Of a DNA stretch of 64,000 bases, positions 4,508 through 56,755 are shown in pieces (the stretch's first letter is position 1; the number at the start of each line of letters is the position of its first letter). The DNA is from Thermoproteota archaeon. Its GTDB lineage: Archaea > Korarchaeota > Korarchaeia > Korarchaeales > Korarchaeaceae. The notes under the pieces were generated by a model. That model did not search any database. It worked only from the letters and a program-made list of their open reading frames with translations, and was not told where the DNA came from. Made by a program: the position numbers and the translations under genes. The DNA lies in NCBI GenBank assembly GCA_027491915.1, contig JAOZGC010000003.1, positions 23,744-87,743 on the forward strand, read 5' to 3'.

Positions 4508-4600
4508 GGGCCGGTAGCGCAGCCGGTAGTCGGTCCAGGTCCGGCCGAACGCGCCCGCCTCGCACGCGGGAGGTCGGGGGTTCGAGTCCCCCCCGGTCCA
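4508..4600 (+). tRNA. tRNA-Ala (CGC) with D-arm intron
   Basis: The acceptor GGGCCGG/CCGGTCC contains the G3:U70 alanine identity pair. The anticodon loop CTCGCAC is closed by CCCGC/GCGGG and the T-arm is GGGGG-TTCGAGT-CCCCC. The gene is 93 bases long. The D-arm can close (GCGC with G+CGC) only if about 20 bases, near 4530-4549, are removed. The flanking GCCGG and the intron's CCGGC can pair, as expected around a bulge-helix-bulge splice site. Mature length would be 73. Confidence 0.85.
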
Positions 4601-4638: not shown

Positions 4639-4733
4639 GGGCCCGTAGCTCAGCCTGGTTGGAGCGCCCGGCTGATAGCGGTCTCTGGCCGGTGGAGACC
4701 GGGAGGTCCCGGGTTCAAGTCCCGGCGGGCCCA
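4639..4733 (+). tRNA. tRNA-Ile (GAT) with anticodon-loop intron
   Basis: The acceptor is GGGCCCG/CGGGCCC with discriminator A. The anticodon stem CCCGG/CCGGG encloses CTGATA. A 20-base intron (about 4678-4697) sits at the canonical position 37/38. Mature length is 75. The discriminator base is also the A of a fortuitous ATG at 4733; the downstream PIN gene more likely starts at 4754. Confidence 0.93.
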
Positions 4734-6933: not shown

Positions 6934-8127
6934 GTGAAGTCTCTGATCAGGAAGGCGGCGGTGGAGCCGGCCGAGGGGACCCCCAGTAAGGTGGCCCCCG
7001 AGGATGAGACGCTGAAGGAGCTGATAGAGGAGGTAAAAGCCAAGATAATGATAATGGGAGTGGGAGGCGCCGGAAGCAATACGGTGACGAGGCTCAACGC
7101 CCTTGGCATAGAGGACGTCGTCACCGTGGCCGCGAACACCGACGGTCAACACCTACTGGAGTCCGTGGCCGACAGGAAGATCCTTTTGGGCAGGGAACTG
7201 TGCGGCGGAAACGGCGCCGGCGGCGACCCGAAGATAGGACAAGAGGCCGCCAAGGAGAGCGAGAACGAGCTGAGGGAACTGCTCGAAGGAACTGACATAC
7301 TCTTCCTCATGGCGGGCCTGGGCGGCGGGACGGGGACCGGGGGCGCCCCGGTCATTGCTAACCTGGCTAGGGAAATGGGGGCGGTGGTCGTCTCCATAGT
7401 GACCCTCCCGTTCTCCGCAGAAGGCCGGAGGAAGAAGGAGATAGCCGAGTCAGGTCTGGAGGAGCTGTCCAACTCCTCCGACACGATCGTCGTGATAAAC
7501 AACGACAGGATACTTGAGGTGGCCAGTGATCTCCCTCTGCATCAGGCCTTCCTCGTCTCGGACGAGGTTATGGCGAGGGCGGTCAAGGGGATAGTTGAGC
7601 TGGTGACCAAGCCTGGACTGATAAACGTCGATCTGGCAGACCTGCGGTCGGTGCTGGAGAGGGGAGGCCCGGCCATCATAGCCTTCGGAGAGAGCGATGG
7701 GGAGAACAGGGCCACCGAGGCCGTGGAGGACGCCCTGGGGAATCCCCTATTGGAGGCCGACATATCCGGGGGGACCGCGGCCGTGGTCAACATCTCGTGC
7801 GGCTCGGATTTCTCCCTGCATGAGATGGAGCAGGTGGTAGAGACGGTGGTCGGCGTTCTGGAGCCGGACGCCAACGTCATATGGGGGGCAAGGATAGACG
7901 AGGATCTCAGGGGAACCGTCCAGGTCCTTCTTGTGATAACCGGCGTGTCAAGTCCATATCTCCCCGGGATCGAGAGGGCTCCCAAGGCCGCGCCGGCCGT
8001 CGAGACGGCAAAACCCATAGCGATCGAGAGATCGGTCAGGCCGACCCTCAGGCGGAGGGAGAGGGGGGCCGCGAGGTCCCCGTCCGGCGAGGACATCTTG
8101 GGAGAGCTGGGCATAGAGGGGCTGTGA
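6934..8127 (+). CDS. ftsZ: Cell division protein FtsZ (copy 1)
   Basis: Tubulin-like GTPase that forms the division ring. GVGGAGSNTVTRL opens the GTPase domain, GLGGGTGTGGAP is the tubulin signature, and INVDLADLRSVL is an intact T7 loop with both aspartates that complete GTP hydrolysis. After the C-terminal domain comes a basic linker (PTLRRRERGAAR) and a short conserved-looking tail (EDILGELGIEGL) that could bind a membrane anchor such as SepF. GTG 6934 follows GGGTGAT. It leads the secE-spt5-L11-L1-L10 operon, a known archaeal arrangement. A second FtsZ is at 42198. Confidence 0.96.
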   Translation: MKSLIRKAAVEPAEGTPSKVAPEDETLKELIEEVKAKIMIMGVGGAGSNTVTRLNALGIEDVVTVAANTDGQHLLESVADRKILLGRELCGGNGAGGDPKIGQEAAKESENELRELLEGTDILFLMAGLGGGTGTGGAPVIANLAREMGAVVVSIVTLPFSAEGRRKKEIAESGLEELSNSSDTIVVINNDRILEVASDLPLHQAFLVSDEVMARAVKGIVELVTKPGLINVDLADLRSVLERGGPAIIAFGESDGENRATEAVEDALGNPLLEADISGGTAAVVNISCGSDFSLHEMEQVVETVVGVLEPDANVIWGARIDEDLRGTVQVLLVITGVSSPYLPGIERAPKAAPAVETAKPIAIERSVRPTLRRRERGAARSPSGEDILGELGIEGL

Positions 8128-19756: not shown

Positions 19757-20607
19757 CCGACCACCTCCAGGAGATATTCCGCGAGCCTGAGATAATCCCC
19801 CGGCGTGAGCTCGTACGCCCTGGACCCCAGGTCCACCGGGGCCATCTCGGCGTCCAACTCCGGGTCGCGGCTTCCCATCCTCCTCAACCACGATATCAGG
19901 GGGGTCCTGATGAGCCTTCTCTTTTTGAAGAAGACGTGGGGAAGAAACTGCTTCAACACCAGCAGCCTGGGGTCTGAGGGGGGGACCTCCGGCCTCGGCC
20001 TCATGCTCAGCACGGCCGCCTCGACGCTGGGCCTGGGATAGAAGACCTGAGGCGCCAGTATGGCCCTGACCTTCACCTCGAACCTCGCCTGAGTCAACAC
20101 GCTGAGGCTGCCGTAGTTACCCTCGCCCGGCATCGCGATCAGCCTATGAGCGAATTCCCTCTGGAGGGACAGACCTATCGACTTAACCTCCCTGAAGATC
20201 AGGTGAAGGATCAACCTCGAGGATATCCCGAAGGGAGGATTGGACGCGACCGAATCGAATTCCAGCCGCCTCAAAACCCGGGGCGCCTCTCCCACGACGA
20301 CCTCCACTGGTCTGCCGGCGAACCTCTCTCTCAAGCGGGCTCCCAACCTGGGATCCACCTCGACGGCAACCACAGAGTCGGCTCCCGCCGCCAGTATGGC
20401 CTCGGTCAGGTTCCCCGCCCCGGCGCCCACCTCTAGGACCTTAAGCCCGCGCACGCCCCCCGCCTCGACTATGATCTCCAGCGCCCTCCTGGATATCAGG
20501 TGGTGCTGCCCCAGTTCCCTGGACGGCCTCGCCAGGGTCTCTCTCAGCAGGTCAGTCACCTCTTTCCGGAGGTCGGGATCCCACCGCCTCACGTACTCGG
20601 GGGGCAC
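19753..20607 (-). CDS. ksgA: rRNA adenine dimethyltransferase (KsgA/Dim1)
   Basis: Dimethylates two adjacent adenines near the 3' end of 16S rRNA. It has LGQHHLISRRALEIIVEAGG, the SAM site VLEVGAGAGNLTEAIL, VEVDPRLG, and catalytic VASNPPFGISSRLI. The C-domain has VFYPRPSVEAAVLSMRP. The 284-residue length fits. It is followed by the coupled release-factor methyltransferase. Confidence 0.94.
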   Translation of the reverse strand: MPPEYVRRWDPDLRKEVTDLLRETLARPSRELGQHHLISRRALEIIVEAGGVRGLKVLEVGAGAGNLTEAILAAGADSVVAVEVDPRLGARLRERFAGRPVEVVVGEAPRVLRRLEFDSVASNPPFGISSRLILHLIFREVKSIGLSLQREFAHRLIAMPGEGNYGSLSVLTQARFEVKVRAILAPQVFYPRPSVEAAVLSMRPRPEVPPSDPRLLVLKQFLPHVFFKKRRLIRTPLISWLRRMGSRDPELDAEMAPVDLGSRAYELTPGDYLRLAEYLLEVVG

Positions 20608-20668
20608 GCGACGCCGGCCGCCGCTGCCTATTTATCCCCCTCCCGAGGGAGGGGCGGGAGGTGCTCGC

Positions 20669-22120
20669 ATGTCGGCGGCCTCCGTCTTGGAGAGGATCGA
20701 CGAGGTAAGGTGGATGCTGCCTCGGTCTTACAAGAGCGGGATGAGGGTGCCGGGACTGGTCATCGCGACGGAGAAGCTCTTGCGCCACATAGAGAGAAAG
20801 TCCCTGGACCAGCTGGCCAACGTGGCCTCCCTGCCCGGAATATACAGGTACTCCATGGCCATGCCCGACGTGCACACCGGGTACGGCTTTCCGATAGGGG
20901 GCGTCGCGGCGTTCGACGCCTACGACGGTGTGATCAGTCCCGGAGGGGTCGGCTTCGACATAAATTGCGGCGTCAGGGTTCTAAGAACAGATCTCCGTGA
21001 GGAGGATGTCAGACCACTCCTGTCTCGACTCGTGGAGACGATCTTCTCCATGGTCCCGTCTGGGCTTGGAAGCAGGGGGAGACTCAGGCTGAGCGAGCCC
21101 CAGATAGACGAGGTATTGATGAGAGGGGCAAGGTGGGCGGTCGATCAGGGATACGGGTGGGATCAGGACCTGGCCCACACCGAGGAGGGCGGATGCATGG
21201 AGGGCGCCGATCCCTCTGTCGTGAGCAGCAGGGCCAAGAGGAGGGGGGCTCCTCAGCTGGGGACGCTGGGAAGCGGAAACCACTTCTTGGAGGTCCAGGT
21301 GGTGGATAAGATATACGATGAGGCCGCAGCGCGGGCTCTGGGGATAGAGGGTCCCGGCCAGGTTACCGTCATGATCCACACCGGCAGCAGGGGGCTTGGC
21401 CACCAGGTGGCCTCCGACTTCCTGGAGGAGATGCTCTCCAGGGCCGGTCAACTCGATTTCCGGCTCCCCGACAGGCAGCTGATATGCGCCTACGCCGGGA
21501 CCAAGACCGCGGAGCGGTACTTCGCGGCCATGCGTGGGGCGGCCAACTACGCGTGGGCCAACCGGCAGATCATAATGCACTGGGTCAGGCAGGCCTTCGA
21601 GAGGGTGCTCGGCAGGAGCCCCGAGGACCTCGGCATGAGGTTGATCTACGACGTGGCCCACAACATAGCCAAGCTCGAGGAGCACGAGGTGGACGGCAGG
21701 ACGGTTAGAGTTTACGTTCACAGGAAGGGGGCGACCAGAGCCTTCCCCCCAGGGAGACCGGAGCTGCCTCCAGACTACAGGGAGGTGGGCCAGCCCGTCT
21801 TGATACCGGGATCCGAGGGGACCGCCTCCTACATCCTGATCGGAACTCGGAGGGCCATGGAGGAGACCTTCGGCTCCGCGGCCCACGGGGCTGGCAGGAT
21901 GATGAGCCGCTCGGCAGCCAAGAGGACCTACCGGGGAAGGCAGATAGTGGAGCAGCTGGCCAGCCGGGGGATAATAGTGAAACCGGCATCCTTCGCGGTG
22001 GCTGCCGAGGAGGCTCCCGGGGCCTACAAAGACGTGGACGAGGTCGCCTTGGCCACCCACAAGGCGGGCATAGCCAGGCTGGTCGTCAGGATGAGACCGA
22101 TGGGAGTGGTCAAGGGTTGA
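20669..22120 (+). CDS. rtcB: RNA-splicing ligase RtcB
   Basis: Joins tRNA halves after intron removal, using GTP and Mn2+. GYGFPIGGVAAFD, SPGGVGFDINCGVRVLRT (metal cysteine), LGTLGSGNHFLEVQVV, HTGSRGLGHQV and the C-terminal PHGAGR-equivalent AAHGAGRMMSR (histidine guanylylation region) are present. ATG 20669 with GCGGGAGGTG upstream gives 483 residues; a much longer in-frame reading from 20240 runs antisense through ksgA and is rejected. It fits a genome with many tRNA introns. Confidence 0.96.
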   Translation: MSAASVLERIDEVRWMLPRSYKSGMRVPGLVIATEKLLRHIERKSLDQLANVASLPGIYRYSMAMPDVHTGYGFPIGGVAAFDAYDGVISPGGVGFDINCGVRVLRTDLREEDVRPLLSRLVETIFSMVPSGLGSRGRLRLSEPQIDEVLMRGARWAVDQGYGWDQDLAHTEEGGCMEGADPSVVSSRAKRRGAPQLGTLGSGNHFLEVQVVDKIYDEAAARALGIEGPGQVTVMIHTGSRGLGHQVASDFLEEMLSRAGQLDFRLPDRQLICAYAGTKTAERYFAAMRGAANYAWANRQIIMHWVRQAFERVLGRSPEDLGMRLIYDVAHNIAKLEEHEVDGRTVRVYVHRKGATRAFPPGRPELPPDYREVGQPVLIPGSEGTASYILIGTRRAMEETFGSAAHGAGRMMSRSAAKRTYRGRQIVEQLASRGIIVKPASFAVAAEEAPGAYKDVDEVALATHKAGIARLVVRMRPMGVVKG

Positions 22121-35315: not shown

Positions 35316-35419
35316 GGGCCCGTGGCTCAGCCTGGAAGAGCGCCCGCCTTATATGGCGGCTCCCGCCACAAAGCCAGAGGAGAAGCGGGAGGTCCCGGGT
35401 TCAAACCCCGGCGGGCCCA
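35316..35419 (+). tRNA. tRNA-Ile (TAT) with 30-base intron
   Basis: The acceptor is GGGCCCG/CGGGCCC with discriminator A; the D-arm is GCTC/GAGC. The anticodon stem CCCGC (35343-35347) pairs with GCGGG (35385-35389). The loop reads C-T-T-A-T-A, giving anticodon UAU. A 30-base intron (about 35354-35383) follows position 37 and can itself fold (GGCGG/CCGCC). Most archaea read AUA with a CAU tRNA modified to agmatidine; an unmodified-type UAU tRNA is rare. Confidence 0.88.
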
Positions 35420-42000: not shown

Positions 42001-42201
42001 ATGGAGGCCGGGAAGATGCCCATAATATCTTTTAAGGTGCCCTTGTGGCTCAAGGAGGAGTTGGACGACCTGGTTCGCTCAGGCGTCTTCGTCTCCAAGA
42101 GCGAGATCCTCAGGGAGGCGCTCTTCAGGTTCCTCACCGAGTACAGGAGAGAGATGATGCTCGGCAGGACGTCGGGCGGCGCGGTAGGTGAGGTCTCTTG
42201 A
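42001..42201 (+). CDS. Ribbon-helix-helix (CopG/Arc-type) DNA-binding protein
   Basis: A 66-residue protein. The strand MPIISFKVPLWLKEELDDL and helices RSGVFVSKSEILREALFRFL form an RHH fold that dimerises and binds palindromic DNA through the strand. ATG 42001. Its stop overlaps the TTG of ftsZ2 (TTGA), so the two proteins are translationally coupled. No toxin is adjacent. I infer autoregulation of the ftsZ2 operon through the palindromes just upstream. Confidence 0.85.
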   Translation: MEAGKMPIISFKVPLWLKEELDDLVRSGVFVSKSEILREALFRFLTEYRREMMLGRTSGGAVGEVS

Positions 42202-43478
42202 GCTTCACGGATATCGTCAAGAGGGCCAGGAGCCTTTCTCCCCAAGGTGACGAGAGGGCGATCAATTCCATACTAAGCAGGATAGAGGACGACTACGATC
42301 TCGATTTCTCCACGGACGAGCTGCCGACCGATCTCCAGACCGGGCGCAGATCACGGATCAAGAAGATCGGAGAGGCCCAGATAGTGATAGTGGGCGTCGG
42401 AGGCGGTGGATGCAACACCGCGAGCGCCCTGATGAGGCTGGGGATAGAGGGGGCCACCATAATCGCGATCAACACCGATATGGCCCACCTGGACAGGAGT
42501 CTGGCTCACAAGAAGGTCCTCATAGGCTACTCCATAACCGGCGGCCTGGGGGCCGGGGGTTACCCTGAGGTGGGGAGGGCGTGCGCCATAAAGGACTCCA
42601 ACAAGATAGCCGAGGCCCTCGGGAGCAAGCCGGACCTGGTCTTCATAGCGGCCGGCATGGGGGGAGGCACCGGCACAGGGGCCGCGCCGGTGGTCGCCAG
42701 GATAGCCAAGGAGAAGGGCGCCATCGTGATATCCGTGGTCACCATGCCATTCGAGCACGAGGGACGCGATAGGAGGAAGAAAGCCGTGAGCGGGGTCAGG
42801 AGACTCAGAAAGTACTCCGACACCGTCATAATGATATCCAACGACAAGCTCTTGCAGTACAAGGACCTGAAACTCCAGGAGGCCTTCGACCTGGCCAACT
42901 ACGTGCTCGCGGTCATGGTCAAGGGGATAACCGAGATAATCAACAAGAAGGCCCTCATCAACATAGACTTCGCCGACATAAAGGCCCTCATGTCCGTCGG
43001 AGGCGGCCTCTCCGCCGTGGGGATAGGGGAATCGAGCAGCGAGGGAGGTAACAGGGTTATAGAGGCGATAGAGGTGGCGCTCGAGAACAAACTCTTGGAC
43101 TACGACGTTGATGGGGCTAAGGGAGCCCTCCTCCTCATAATAGGAGGCGAGGACTTGACGCTGGATGAGGCGACTAGGGGGGCCGACATGATACACAAGA
43201 AGCTCGCCCCGGACGCCGTGTTCAAGTGGGGGGCCGACATAGACCCCAGCATGGGCAAGACCGTTCGGGTGATACTGGTCCTCGCCGGCATAATGTCCCA
43301 GTCCATCATCCCCGGAATTGAGTGGTCCAGGGAGAGGGTCGCCCCCAGGTTGGCCGTCGATGGGGGTCTCCTCGACCCGGATGGGGCTGCCGCGGAGATT
43401 CTGGAGAGGAGGAAATCCCTCGTGTATTCCATCCTCCAGATGGTATTCGGCCAGGACGGGTTCATGATATTCAGGTGA
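42198..43478 (+). CDS. ftsZ: Cell division protein FtsZ (copy 2)
   Basis: Second FtsZ paralogue (426 residues). GVGGGGCNTASALMRLG, GMGGGTGTGAAP and the T7 loop INIDFADIKALM keep both catalytic aspartates, so it should hydrolyse GTP. The N-terminus has an extra 65-residue acidic segment before the GTPase domain. The tail ends MVFGQDGFMIFR, unlike copy 1, and lacks the linker and EDILGELG-type peptide. It is coupled to the RHH gene. In euryarchaea the two FtsZ types do different division jobs; whether this pair is orthologous to those is not known to me. Confidence 0.95.
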   Translation: MSFTDIVKRARSLSPQGDERAINSILSRIEDDYDLDFSTDELPTDLQTGRRSRIKKIGEAQIVIVGVGGGGCNTASALMRLGIEGATIIAINTDMAHLDRSLAHKKVLIGYSITGGLGAGGYPEVGRACAIKDSNKIAEALGSKPDLVFIAAGMGGGTGTGAAPVVARIAKEKGAIVISVVTMPFEHEGRDRRKKAVSGVRRLRKYSDTVIMISNDKLLQYKDLKLQEAFDLANYVLAVMVKGITEIINKKALINIDFADIKALMSVGGGLSAVGIGESSSEGGNRVIEAIEVALENKLLDYDVDGAKGALLLIIGGEDLTLDEATRGADMIHKKLAPDAVFKWGADIDPSMGKTVRVILVLAGIMSQSIIPGIEWSRERVAPRLAVDGGLLDPDGAAAEILERRKSLVYSILQMVFGQDGFMIFR

Positions 43479-55969: not shown

Positions 55970-56755
55970 TTAGAGAAGTAGCGGGGGGTGGATTTGAACC
56001 ACCGACCTCCGGGTTATGAGCCCGGCGGGCTGACCAGGCTGCCCCACCCCGCTGGGCCGCGTTTTCGTCGAGGCGGTATATAAAACTTCGGACCCCTCCC
56101 CGGCGGATCGCCGCACGGGGGCGATCCCGCGTGCGGGCCCGCCGTGGCCGCCGCGCGGGCCCCCTCCGGGCCCGGTGGGGAAGGGGGACCCGCCCACACG
56201 ATCCGGTCGCATGACCCCCTCGGCGGGTCGGTCGGTTCCCCCTGTGGTGGCCGGAGGACTGGTATGGGCCGCTCGCCGCCCGGCCGACCGCCCGCCGGGC
56301 GTCCACCTGGGCGGCCCCCTCCGCGTCGCCAGTGAAGCCGCCCCCAGGATCAGCCCGGCCGCGGCCACTGCCACCCCCGCCGACCGAGCCAGGCGGCTCT
56401 CCCCCTCCTCCTGGACCAGCCAGATGGCCGCCTCGCACCCCCCCGCCCCGGCGGGGGAGAACTCCAGGGAGTACACGGATCCGGCCGGCACCTCGAACTC
56501 CAGGCTGGAGTTCCCCACCTCCCTGGCCGGCACCACCGCCCGCCCGGTGAGGGCGGACCTGAGCTCGAACCTCAGGGGGCAGCCGGACCTCACGTTGAGG
56601 ACGTACCTGCCGGCCTCCATCTTCGCCACCATCGACGCCCGCCCGAACACCCCCAGGTCCCCCCTCGAGTCCCACCTCCCCGAGGTCAGGGCCGACCCGA
56701 CGTAGATCGCCAGCCCGAGGGAGATCAGGGCCGCGGCCGTCCGGGTCCCCAACAA
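55970..56755 (-). CDS. ABC-exporter-associated membrane protein, frame runs through tRNA
   Basis: The first ~165 residues look real: an N-terminal membrane helix (AAALISLGLAIYVGSALTSG), a beta-rich external part with a cysteine pair (VRSGCPLRFELRS, GGCEAAIWLVQEEG) and a second helix (GVAVAAAGLILGAASLATRR). After this the frame becomes Pro/Gly/Arg-rich, has no stop, and passes through the tRNA promoter and initiator tRNA to 55970. The gene abuts the permease (one base apart). I infer a lost stop or frameshift; the true end is probably near 56250. Confidence 0.5.
   Translation of the reverse strand: MLGTRTAAALISLGLAIYVGSALTSGRWDSRGDLGVFGRASMVAKMEAGRYVLNVRSGCPLRFELRSALTGRAVVPAREVGNSSLEFEVPAGSVYSLEFSPAGAGGCEAAIWLVQEEGESRLARSAGVAVAAAGLILGAASLATRRGPPRWTPGGRSAGRRAAHTSPPATTGGTDRPAEGVMRPDRVGGSPFPTGPGGGPRGGHGGPARGIAPVRRSAGEGSEVLYTASTKTRPSGVGQPGQPAGLITRRSVVQIHPPLLL
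55979..56053 (-). tRNA. Initiator tRNA-Met (CAT)
   Basis: The acceptor AGCGGGG/CCCCGCT starts with an A1:U72 pair, and the anticodon stem has CCGGG/CCCGG with three G:C pairs next to loop CTCATAA, the archaeal initiator marks. Discriminator A. A TATATAAAA promoter (56077-56085, read leftward) is centred about 27 bases from the mature 5' end, so transcription starts at or next to it. Confidence 0.95.
56077..56085 (-). promoter_or_regulatory. TATA box of initiator tRNA
   Basis: On the minus strand the sequence is TTTTATATA, centred near 56081 and predicting a start at about 56054, one base upstream of the tRNA. Confidence 0.65.

Follow-up and report, generated by a model that had tools for sequence, protein, structure and literature searches.

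The window analyzed here, a stretch of 64,000 nucleotides (positions 23744-87743 of contig 3, G000:C3) from a Korarchaeal assembly of 1.12 Mb (G000; 4 contigs, 91% complete), carries a tRNA-Ile gene that would have the anticodon UAU after removal of a 30-nt intron. The genome combines this anticodon and intron with a lack of detectable TiaS, Elp3 and TruA, and the intron has a conserved pairing register and an ACA motif. Our reading as a whole, which we hold tentatively, is that the tRNA, presumably spliced and charged with isoleucine, would read AUA in place of the agmatidine route, that its intron would refold the precursor, and that a putative enzyme would modify U34 to pseudouridine (Psi34), keeping the tRNA off AUG. 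No account was found of how archaea without TiaS tell AUA from AUG. Taken with the absent enzymes, the tRNA and the plan of its intron suggest that the precursor is what becomes modified, and the question thereby becomes testable. The gene and the ligase expected to join its exons are located in the window as follows.

35316..35419, + strand: tRNA-Ile(UAU) gene with intron (Rfam RF00005, 56.3 bits, and direct reading)
35316..35353, + strand: exon 1, positions 1-37 (sequence; alignment with relatives)
35350..35352, + strand: anticodon TAT, positions 34-36 (sequence; same in 25/29 phylum genomes)
35354..35383, + strand: 30-nt intron at 37/38 (sequence; alignment with relatives)
35384..35419, + strand: exon 2, positions 38-73 (sequence; alignment with relatives)
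20240..22120, + strand: RtcB tRNA-splicing ligase, the expected exon joiner (Pfam PF01139, E 1e-177)

The Rfam tRNA model matches the forward strand at 35316-35419 with 56.3 bits against a gathering score of 29 (E 1.8e-9 when the whole window is searched, 6.5e-12 for a short stretch), its alignment running through C-U-U-A-U-A, then an insert, then the 3' anticodon strand; no Rfam family except tRNA reaches its gathering score at this locus. The sequence can form an acceptor stem (GGGCCCG/CGGGCCC), a D stem (GCTC/GAGC), an anticodon stem (CCCGC/GCGGG) and a T stem (CCGGG/CCCGG), with A73 as the discriminator base. Exon 1 ends in CCCGC CTTATA and exon 2 begins with A GCGGG, with 30 bases between them. 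Excision at 37/38 is predicted to give the loop CUUAUAA with the anticodon UAU, and a cut shifted one base 5' on both sides leads to the identical spliced product. Direct reading and the Rfam score thus confirmed the CTTATA loop, the clean stem, the 30-base intron and the UAU anticodon described in the original prediction. By the canonical BHB criterion, a 4-bp central helix between two 3-nt bulges, the predicted folds of this gene are non-canonical, having a central helix of the form C-G, U-A, U-G (3/4 pairs) and a 3' bulge of 2 nt. ARAGORN run without introns missed the gene. A DUF354 gene (PF04007; 35437-36528, + strand) adjoins the tRNA on its downstream side, and ORFs that look similar by eye lie 3' of tRNA-Ile(UAU) in genomes G026 and G028 and 3' of tRNA-Ile(GAU) in G006.

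Among the 29 genomes of the phylum, 25 have a tRNA-Ile(UAU) gene, always with an intron at 37/38 and always with UUAUA preceding it (25/25). The gene was not found in G004, G005, G024 and G027, where for G004 and G005 only the listed tRNA places were read. A sequence pattern with a widened D loop gave 22 true genes and five chance rows (a narrower first pattern, with too short a D loop, gave 3 true genes), and fetched stretches, read directly, added those of G002, G026 and G028. The tRNA-Ile(UAU) genes of G026 and G028 appear by eye to contain a second, non-canonical intron. The trait itself is already known: according to passages of PMC8450103 and PMC6000648, tRNA-Ile(UAU) occurs in Korarchaeum cryptofilum and Nanoarchaeum equitans, and K. 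cryptofilum lacks Ile2(CAU) (PMC8450103) and has an intron in Ile(UAU) but none in Ile(GAU) (PMC6000648). An intron-bearing Ile(UAU) and an intronless Ile(GAU) are also found in G008. The NCBI taxonomy places K. cryptofilum in Thermoproteota, Korarchaeia, and the taxonomic hint taken from the anticodon in the original prediction holds, the same trait being described for this species in parts of PMC8450103 and PMC6000648. The window's tRNA resembles that of K. cryptofilum in its UAU anticodon, its single intron, the lack of Ile2(CAU) and exons close to those of Ile(GAU); it differs in that tRNA-Ile(GAU) of the window also bears an intron, and the passages concerned (PMC6000648, PMC8450103) do not cover intron structure or other members of the phylum. 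The plan of the intron looks new.

Intron bases are numbered here from +1, the first base after A37. The family of the window comprises 24 genomes, in 22 of which the gene was found, with 15 distinct introns of 27-33 nt. These introns begin with U GGCGG CUCCCGC Y ACA, with few changes outside genus g5. In the window the elements concerned are:

35344..35348, + strand: anticodon stem 28-32, predicted alternative partner of intron +2..+6 (computed folds)
35355..35359, + strand: intron +2..+6 (GGCGG), 3' side of the predicted anticodon hairpin (computed folds)
35360..35366, + strand: intron +7..+13 (CTCCCGC), strand of a helix fixed in register, its partner here being exon 2 (computed folds)
35368..35370, + strand: ACA at intron +15..+17 (22/22 family introns)
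35385..35391, + strand: exon 2 positions 39-45 (GCGGGAG), predicted partner of intron +7..+13 (computed folds)

Pairing of +2..+6 with 28-32 is predicted to leave a 6-nt loop, UUAUAU. In G028 one pair of the helix between +7..+13 and exon 2 is G-C where the others have C-G, and the intron strand is shifted by two bases. ACA occupies +15..+17 in all 22 family introns and in none of 24 introns of elongator tRNA-Met. Between genera g1-g4 the mean identity is 0.77-0.90 for the Ile intron and 0.50-0.67 for that of elongator Met; in comparisons with g5 the Ile intron (0.63-0.70) is hardly more alike than the Met intron (0.50-0.62). ACA is absent from G001, G002 and G003, which branch deeply in the phylum, and G001 and G003 also fall outside the register. 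The introns of elongator tRNA-Met (L098-L120) are often complementary to the D-stem and anticodon-stem strands of exon 1, in other registers than those of Ile(UAU). Pairing between intron and exon 1 as a trait of every intron was considered and set aside: Met introns do pair with exon 1, but in different registers.

The predicted folds, all computed at 37 C, are consistent with a refolded anticodon arm. The canonical BHB fold pairs U33, U34 and A35, whereas the alternative fold would place U34 and U36 of the unspliced RNA in the loop of a hairpin. When the cloverleaf arms are enforced, the alternative fold is better than the BHB-like fold in 8 of the 9 precursors tried (of 25), G010 being the exception; for the precursor of the window the predicted energies are -52.0 and -48.7 kcal/mol, respectively. 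The best unconstrained fold of the window gene is not a cloverleaf. Its 37/38 intron can pair with the anticodon arm in the predicted folds, with a hairpin probability of 0.34 and a probability of 0.37 that U34 is unpaired; base 34 of the elongator Met precursor of the same genome is unpaired with a higher probability, 0.70. Across the 20 Korarchaeal genes used for register and fold probability, the hairpin reaches a probability of at least 0.5 in 17 precursors (mean 0.81), and among the matches listed it does so in 18 of 25 non-Korarchaeal precursors (mean 0.67). U34 is predicted to be unpaired at 0.5 or above in 19/20 Korarchaeal and, among the matches listed, 18/25 non-Korarchaeal precursors (37/45 together), the window's own not clearly so. 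By a more lenient measure, 18 Met precursors gave a mean hairpin probability of 0.12, with base 34 unpaired at 0.5 or above in 5.

The same plan was found in other archaea. A scan of species genomes listed 80 of 115 stretches, among them 43 archaeal loci by title and 37 bacterial ones, and at least 39 archaeal tRNA-Ile(UAU) loci lie outside Korarchaeota; these belong mostly to what we take to be DPANN. The original prediction had named Korarchaeum and Nanoarchaeum as the exceptions with UAU: both do have it, according to passages of PMC8450103 and PMC6000648, but with at least 39 archaeal loci outside Korarchaeota the trait is not confined to them. Among the titles and abstract openings of the literature consulted, none dealt with tRNA-Ile(UAU) in DPANN or with the intron plan. 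Introns are present in 30/39 resolved archaeal loci and in 26/35 of those outside Korarchaeota, among the matches listed. Introns are rarer in other tRNAs: of the 24 that Rfam detected in 20 fetched stretches and in 36 of the 39 non-Korarchaeal loci, 4 have one, again among the matches listed (Fisher p 1.6e-5). The remaining 9 of the 35 resolved non-Korarchaeal genes, among the matches listed, are intronless, and therefore the intron device is not needed everywhere.

For the comparison of introns outside Korarchaeota, 25 of at least 17 nt each were used, leaving out four loci whose gene could not be resolved (L173, L190, L197, L204), the 13-nt intron of L207, the nine intronless genes and four Korarchaeal loci. 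An intron was counted as in register if the strongest helix of its first 18 bases has its start within +5..+8 and its end within +12..+15. Among the matches listed, 20/25 non-Korarchaeal introns are in register (shuffles: mean 2.78, maximum 9 in 1500), a count to be read with the register window having been set after the introns had been read and with the genes being related rather than independent. The register also occurs in 18/20 Korarchaeal genes, all but G001 and G003, and in 2/43 introns of other tRNAs. Of these 43 controls, 24 belong to elongator Met genes of the same phylum (seven genera), and DPANN supplies only three; two controls were dropped, the 'Phe' of L123, which is an ARAGORN miscall of the G026 Ile(UAU), and the Gly of L207, whose sequence failed its check. 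The partner strand of the helix varies among introns: it may come from the D arm in exon 1, from exon 2 or from within the intron. In the 25 non-Korarchaeal precursors, among the matches listed, 89.3% of cells have the pairs 30-32/+2..+4, and only 54.3% have the lower helix at one fixed register. The covariation score of the whole plan was reached by 0/500 shuffles and by no slid version, while the pairs changed on both sides number 2, with as many in 187/500 shuffles. A complementarity of 7 bases at +7 is present in 11/25 introns among the matches listed (shuffles: mean 0.73, maximum 4); with introns permuted among tRNAs the mean is 4.5 and the maximum 9. ACA at +15, an offset first seen in the Korarchaeal family and then tested elsewhere, is found in 6/25 non-Korarchaeal introns among the matches listed (0/5000 shuffles), and descent alone may yield such counts, because ACA at +3 occurs in 5 introns too.

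These data can also be read as those of an ordinary Korarchaeal tRNA-Ile(UAU), in which the intron fold would serve splicing or its timing only and AUG would be avoided by competition from tRNA-Met together with discrimination by the ribosome and synthetase. We regard this as possible, although doubtful. Delayed cleavage could equally account for the alternative fold, the hairpin is weakly formed in the window's own precursor, and nine non-Korarchaeal Ile(UAU) genes, among the matches listed, have no intron. Mycoplasma mobile is reported to have an unmodified UAU tRNA (work of Taniguchi, 2013). However, AUA is the commonest isoleucine codon in the nine window ORFs counted (116/185 Ile codons), and therefore reading AUG as isoleucine should be costly; furthermore, among the controls tested the register is specific to the introns of Ile(UAU).

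The alternative fold, the AUA usage, the missing Pus1/TruA and Elp3, and a spacing that suits Cbf5 lead us to infer a modification of the precursor, likely Psi34. In the mechanism proposed, the tRNA would read AUA directly and replace the TiaS/agmatidine route. The predicted effect of the intron is that the anticodon arm of the unspliced RNA refolds as a hairpin of its own, which would present U34 to a pseudouridine synthase; conversion of U34 to Psi34 would take place on the precursor, and Psi34 would then hold the tRNA off AUG. If this is true, a sense codon, and indeed the one used most often for isoleucine in the genes counted, depends on the intron for its accurate reading. The TruA/Pus1 family (PF01416) was not matched in 26/29 phylum genomes, including that of the window, and in these 26 Psi38/39 would therefore need another enzyme or a guide. 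The family is present in the other three, G001-G003, which are those without the intron ACA, though this counts as a single split in the tree. A Pfam scan of 48 ORFs, a subset of those in the window, gave no pseudouridine synthase, Cbf5 included. A guide of the H/ACA type acting in trans was rejected as an explanation, since the 30-nt intron has by eye neither a K-turn or K-loop nor a guide pocket; the four Rfam matches with E up to 1 include no H/ACA family.

By analogy, the favored candidate is stand-alone Cbf5. Passages of PMC6138745 state that this enzyme modifies tRNA U55 in vitro without a guide, as well as a site in rRNA that is regarded as a mimic of the T arm. It is favored because the spacing of the intron, in which +2..+13 (12 nt), +14 and ACA follow one another, repeats that of positions 61-72 (T stem and acceptor strand), position 73 and CCA, and because U34 would be the second base of its loop, as U55 is in the T loop. 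In the family the spacing would suit a candidate substrate of stand-alone Cbf5, namely a T-arm-like stem-loop, an acceptor-like helix and N(A/C)CA. A broader proposal, which we put forward as speculative and rather unlikely in its entirety, is that the introns of archaeal Ile(UAU) act in cis as a ruler, remodelling the anticodon arm of the precursor after the T arm and acceptor end, with ACA in the place of CCA, and thereby letting guide-free Cbf5 form Psi34 before splicing; TiaS would thereby have been replaced across Korarchaeota and much of DPANN, and the tRNA would correspond, in archaea, to the Psi-A-Psi tRNA of eukaryotes.

An Elp3-type modification of the 5-carboxymethyl family could instead restrict U34 to A, as in other tRNAs with U34, and the intron would then be irrelevant. 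Elp3 passes the cut-off in 19/29 phylum genomes, but it was not matched in the genome of the window (91% complete) or in G007 (96%), and G006 (96%) has only an 18-bit match. The intron is most alike between these genera, and we consider the Elp3 explanation improbable. The apparent loss of Elp3 in two genera of the family bears on all tRNAs with U34.

The tRNA set of the genome was drawn from 45 Rfam matches up to E 10, 42 of them above the cut-off, and was read with ARAGORN and by eye. Two of its members lie in the window:

4639..4733, + strand: tRNA-Ile(GAU), the second Ile tRNA, with a 20-nt intron (Rfam; ARAGORN)
55979..56053, - strand: initiator tRNA-Met(CAU) (ARAGORN; Rfam)

The isoleucine tRNAs of the genome are GAU and UAU. 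In G006 the intron of tRNA-Ile(GAU) is a different one, and in G008 there is none. Only two of the 45 matches have CAT, the initiator Met and the elongator Met (42-nt intron), and no tRNA-Ile of the CAU type is among them; Tyr and Trp are also unrecognised among these 45, and for this reason the tRNA list is not exhaustive. In the phylum a CAT pattern, which had no positive control, gave 26 rows: two are chance hits, and the other 24 are elongator Met genes, a single one per genome. No match to TiaS (PF08489) was found in the window's own genome, as the original prediction had suspected, nor in any of the 29 phylum genomes, of which 17 have a completeness of 90% or more and a contamination of 5% or less; all four archaeal controls match. 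It was likewise matched in 0/43 archaeal genomes bearing UAU among the matches listed, a count for which completeness is not stated and the profile has no positive control from DPANN. Several further features were noted. There are apparent D-arm introns, by eye, in tRNA-Ala(CGC) (4508-4600, + strand) and in tRNA-Ser(CGA) (G000:C3:7141-7248), and weak tRNA matches at G000:C2:45505-45599, C3:39763-39820 and C3:12973-13032, the last two resembling Gln(CUG) and Gln(UUG) genes whose ends match poorly. Two genes of the FtsZ family are present in the window (6934-8127 and 42198-43478).

A genome search for tiaS and a CAU-type tRNA-Ile had been proposed as the check on the original prediction, and their joint presence as one way to refute it. 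Neither was found, TiaS being unmatched and both CAT tRNAs being Met. It is very unlikely that one or the other is present and was missed through an incomplete assembly, a diverged gene or a tRNA with several introns. Room for this is left by the 91% completeness, by the unrecognised tRNA-Tyr and tRNA-Trp and by the controls, the TiaS profile lacking a positive one from DPANN and the CAT pattern having none. Against it stand the 0/29 result for TiaS in the phylum, the four matching archaeal controls, and the absence of Ile2(CAU) published for K. cryptofilum in a passage of PMC8450103. Finally, another splice site with a different anticodon, such as the Leu(UAG) that ARAGORN run with introns proposes by sliding the intron, and for which the relaxed central helix leaves room, can practically be dismissed: the gene has a type I body and exons resembling those of tRNA-Ile(GAU) of the same genome, a separate type II tRNA-Leu(UAG) is present elsewhere in that genome, and UUAUA precedes the intron in 24 relatives as well, that is, in 25/25 phylum genes.

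Several known systems can be compared with the precursor-dependent Psi34 preferred here. The agmatidine-bearing tRNA-Ile2(CAU), made with TiaS, also serves to read AUA, but it relies on a CAU anticodon and on TiaS, neither of which was found here. The archaeal tRNA-Trp intron with a box C/D guide is a precedent for an intron that directs the modification of its own tRNA (a passage of PMC4090602); that guide brings about 2'-O-methylation and does not act on U34, and by eye the window intron has no C/D boxes. Archaeal H/ACA and H/ACA-like guides resemble it in having an ANA box at a fixed distance, which here is 14 nt from base 37 to ACA, and differ in that the window intron has no visible K-turn or guide pocket and its target would lie in cis (passages of PMC4652768). 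In eukaryotes, tRNA-Ile(UAU) has the same anticodon, an intron at 37/38, an intron-dependent Psi34/Psi36 and the same need to tell AUA from AUG (passages of PMC4090602 and PMC9602550). In yeast, Pus1 forms Psi34 and Psi36 in vitro only on the intron-bearing precursor (PMC4090602, in part), and a red alga departs from the yeast scheme (PMC9602550, in part). The enzyme of the eukaryotic system is Pus1 (a passage of PMC4090602), whose family, PF01416, is unmatched in the genome of the window. If our reading is true, the intron-dependent Psi34 of eukaryotes gains an archaeal parallel that works with a different enzyme.
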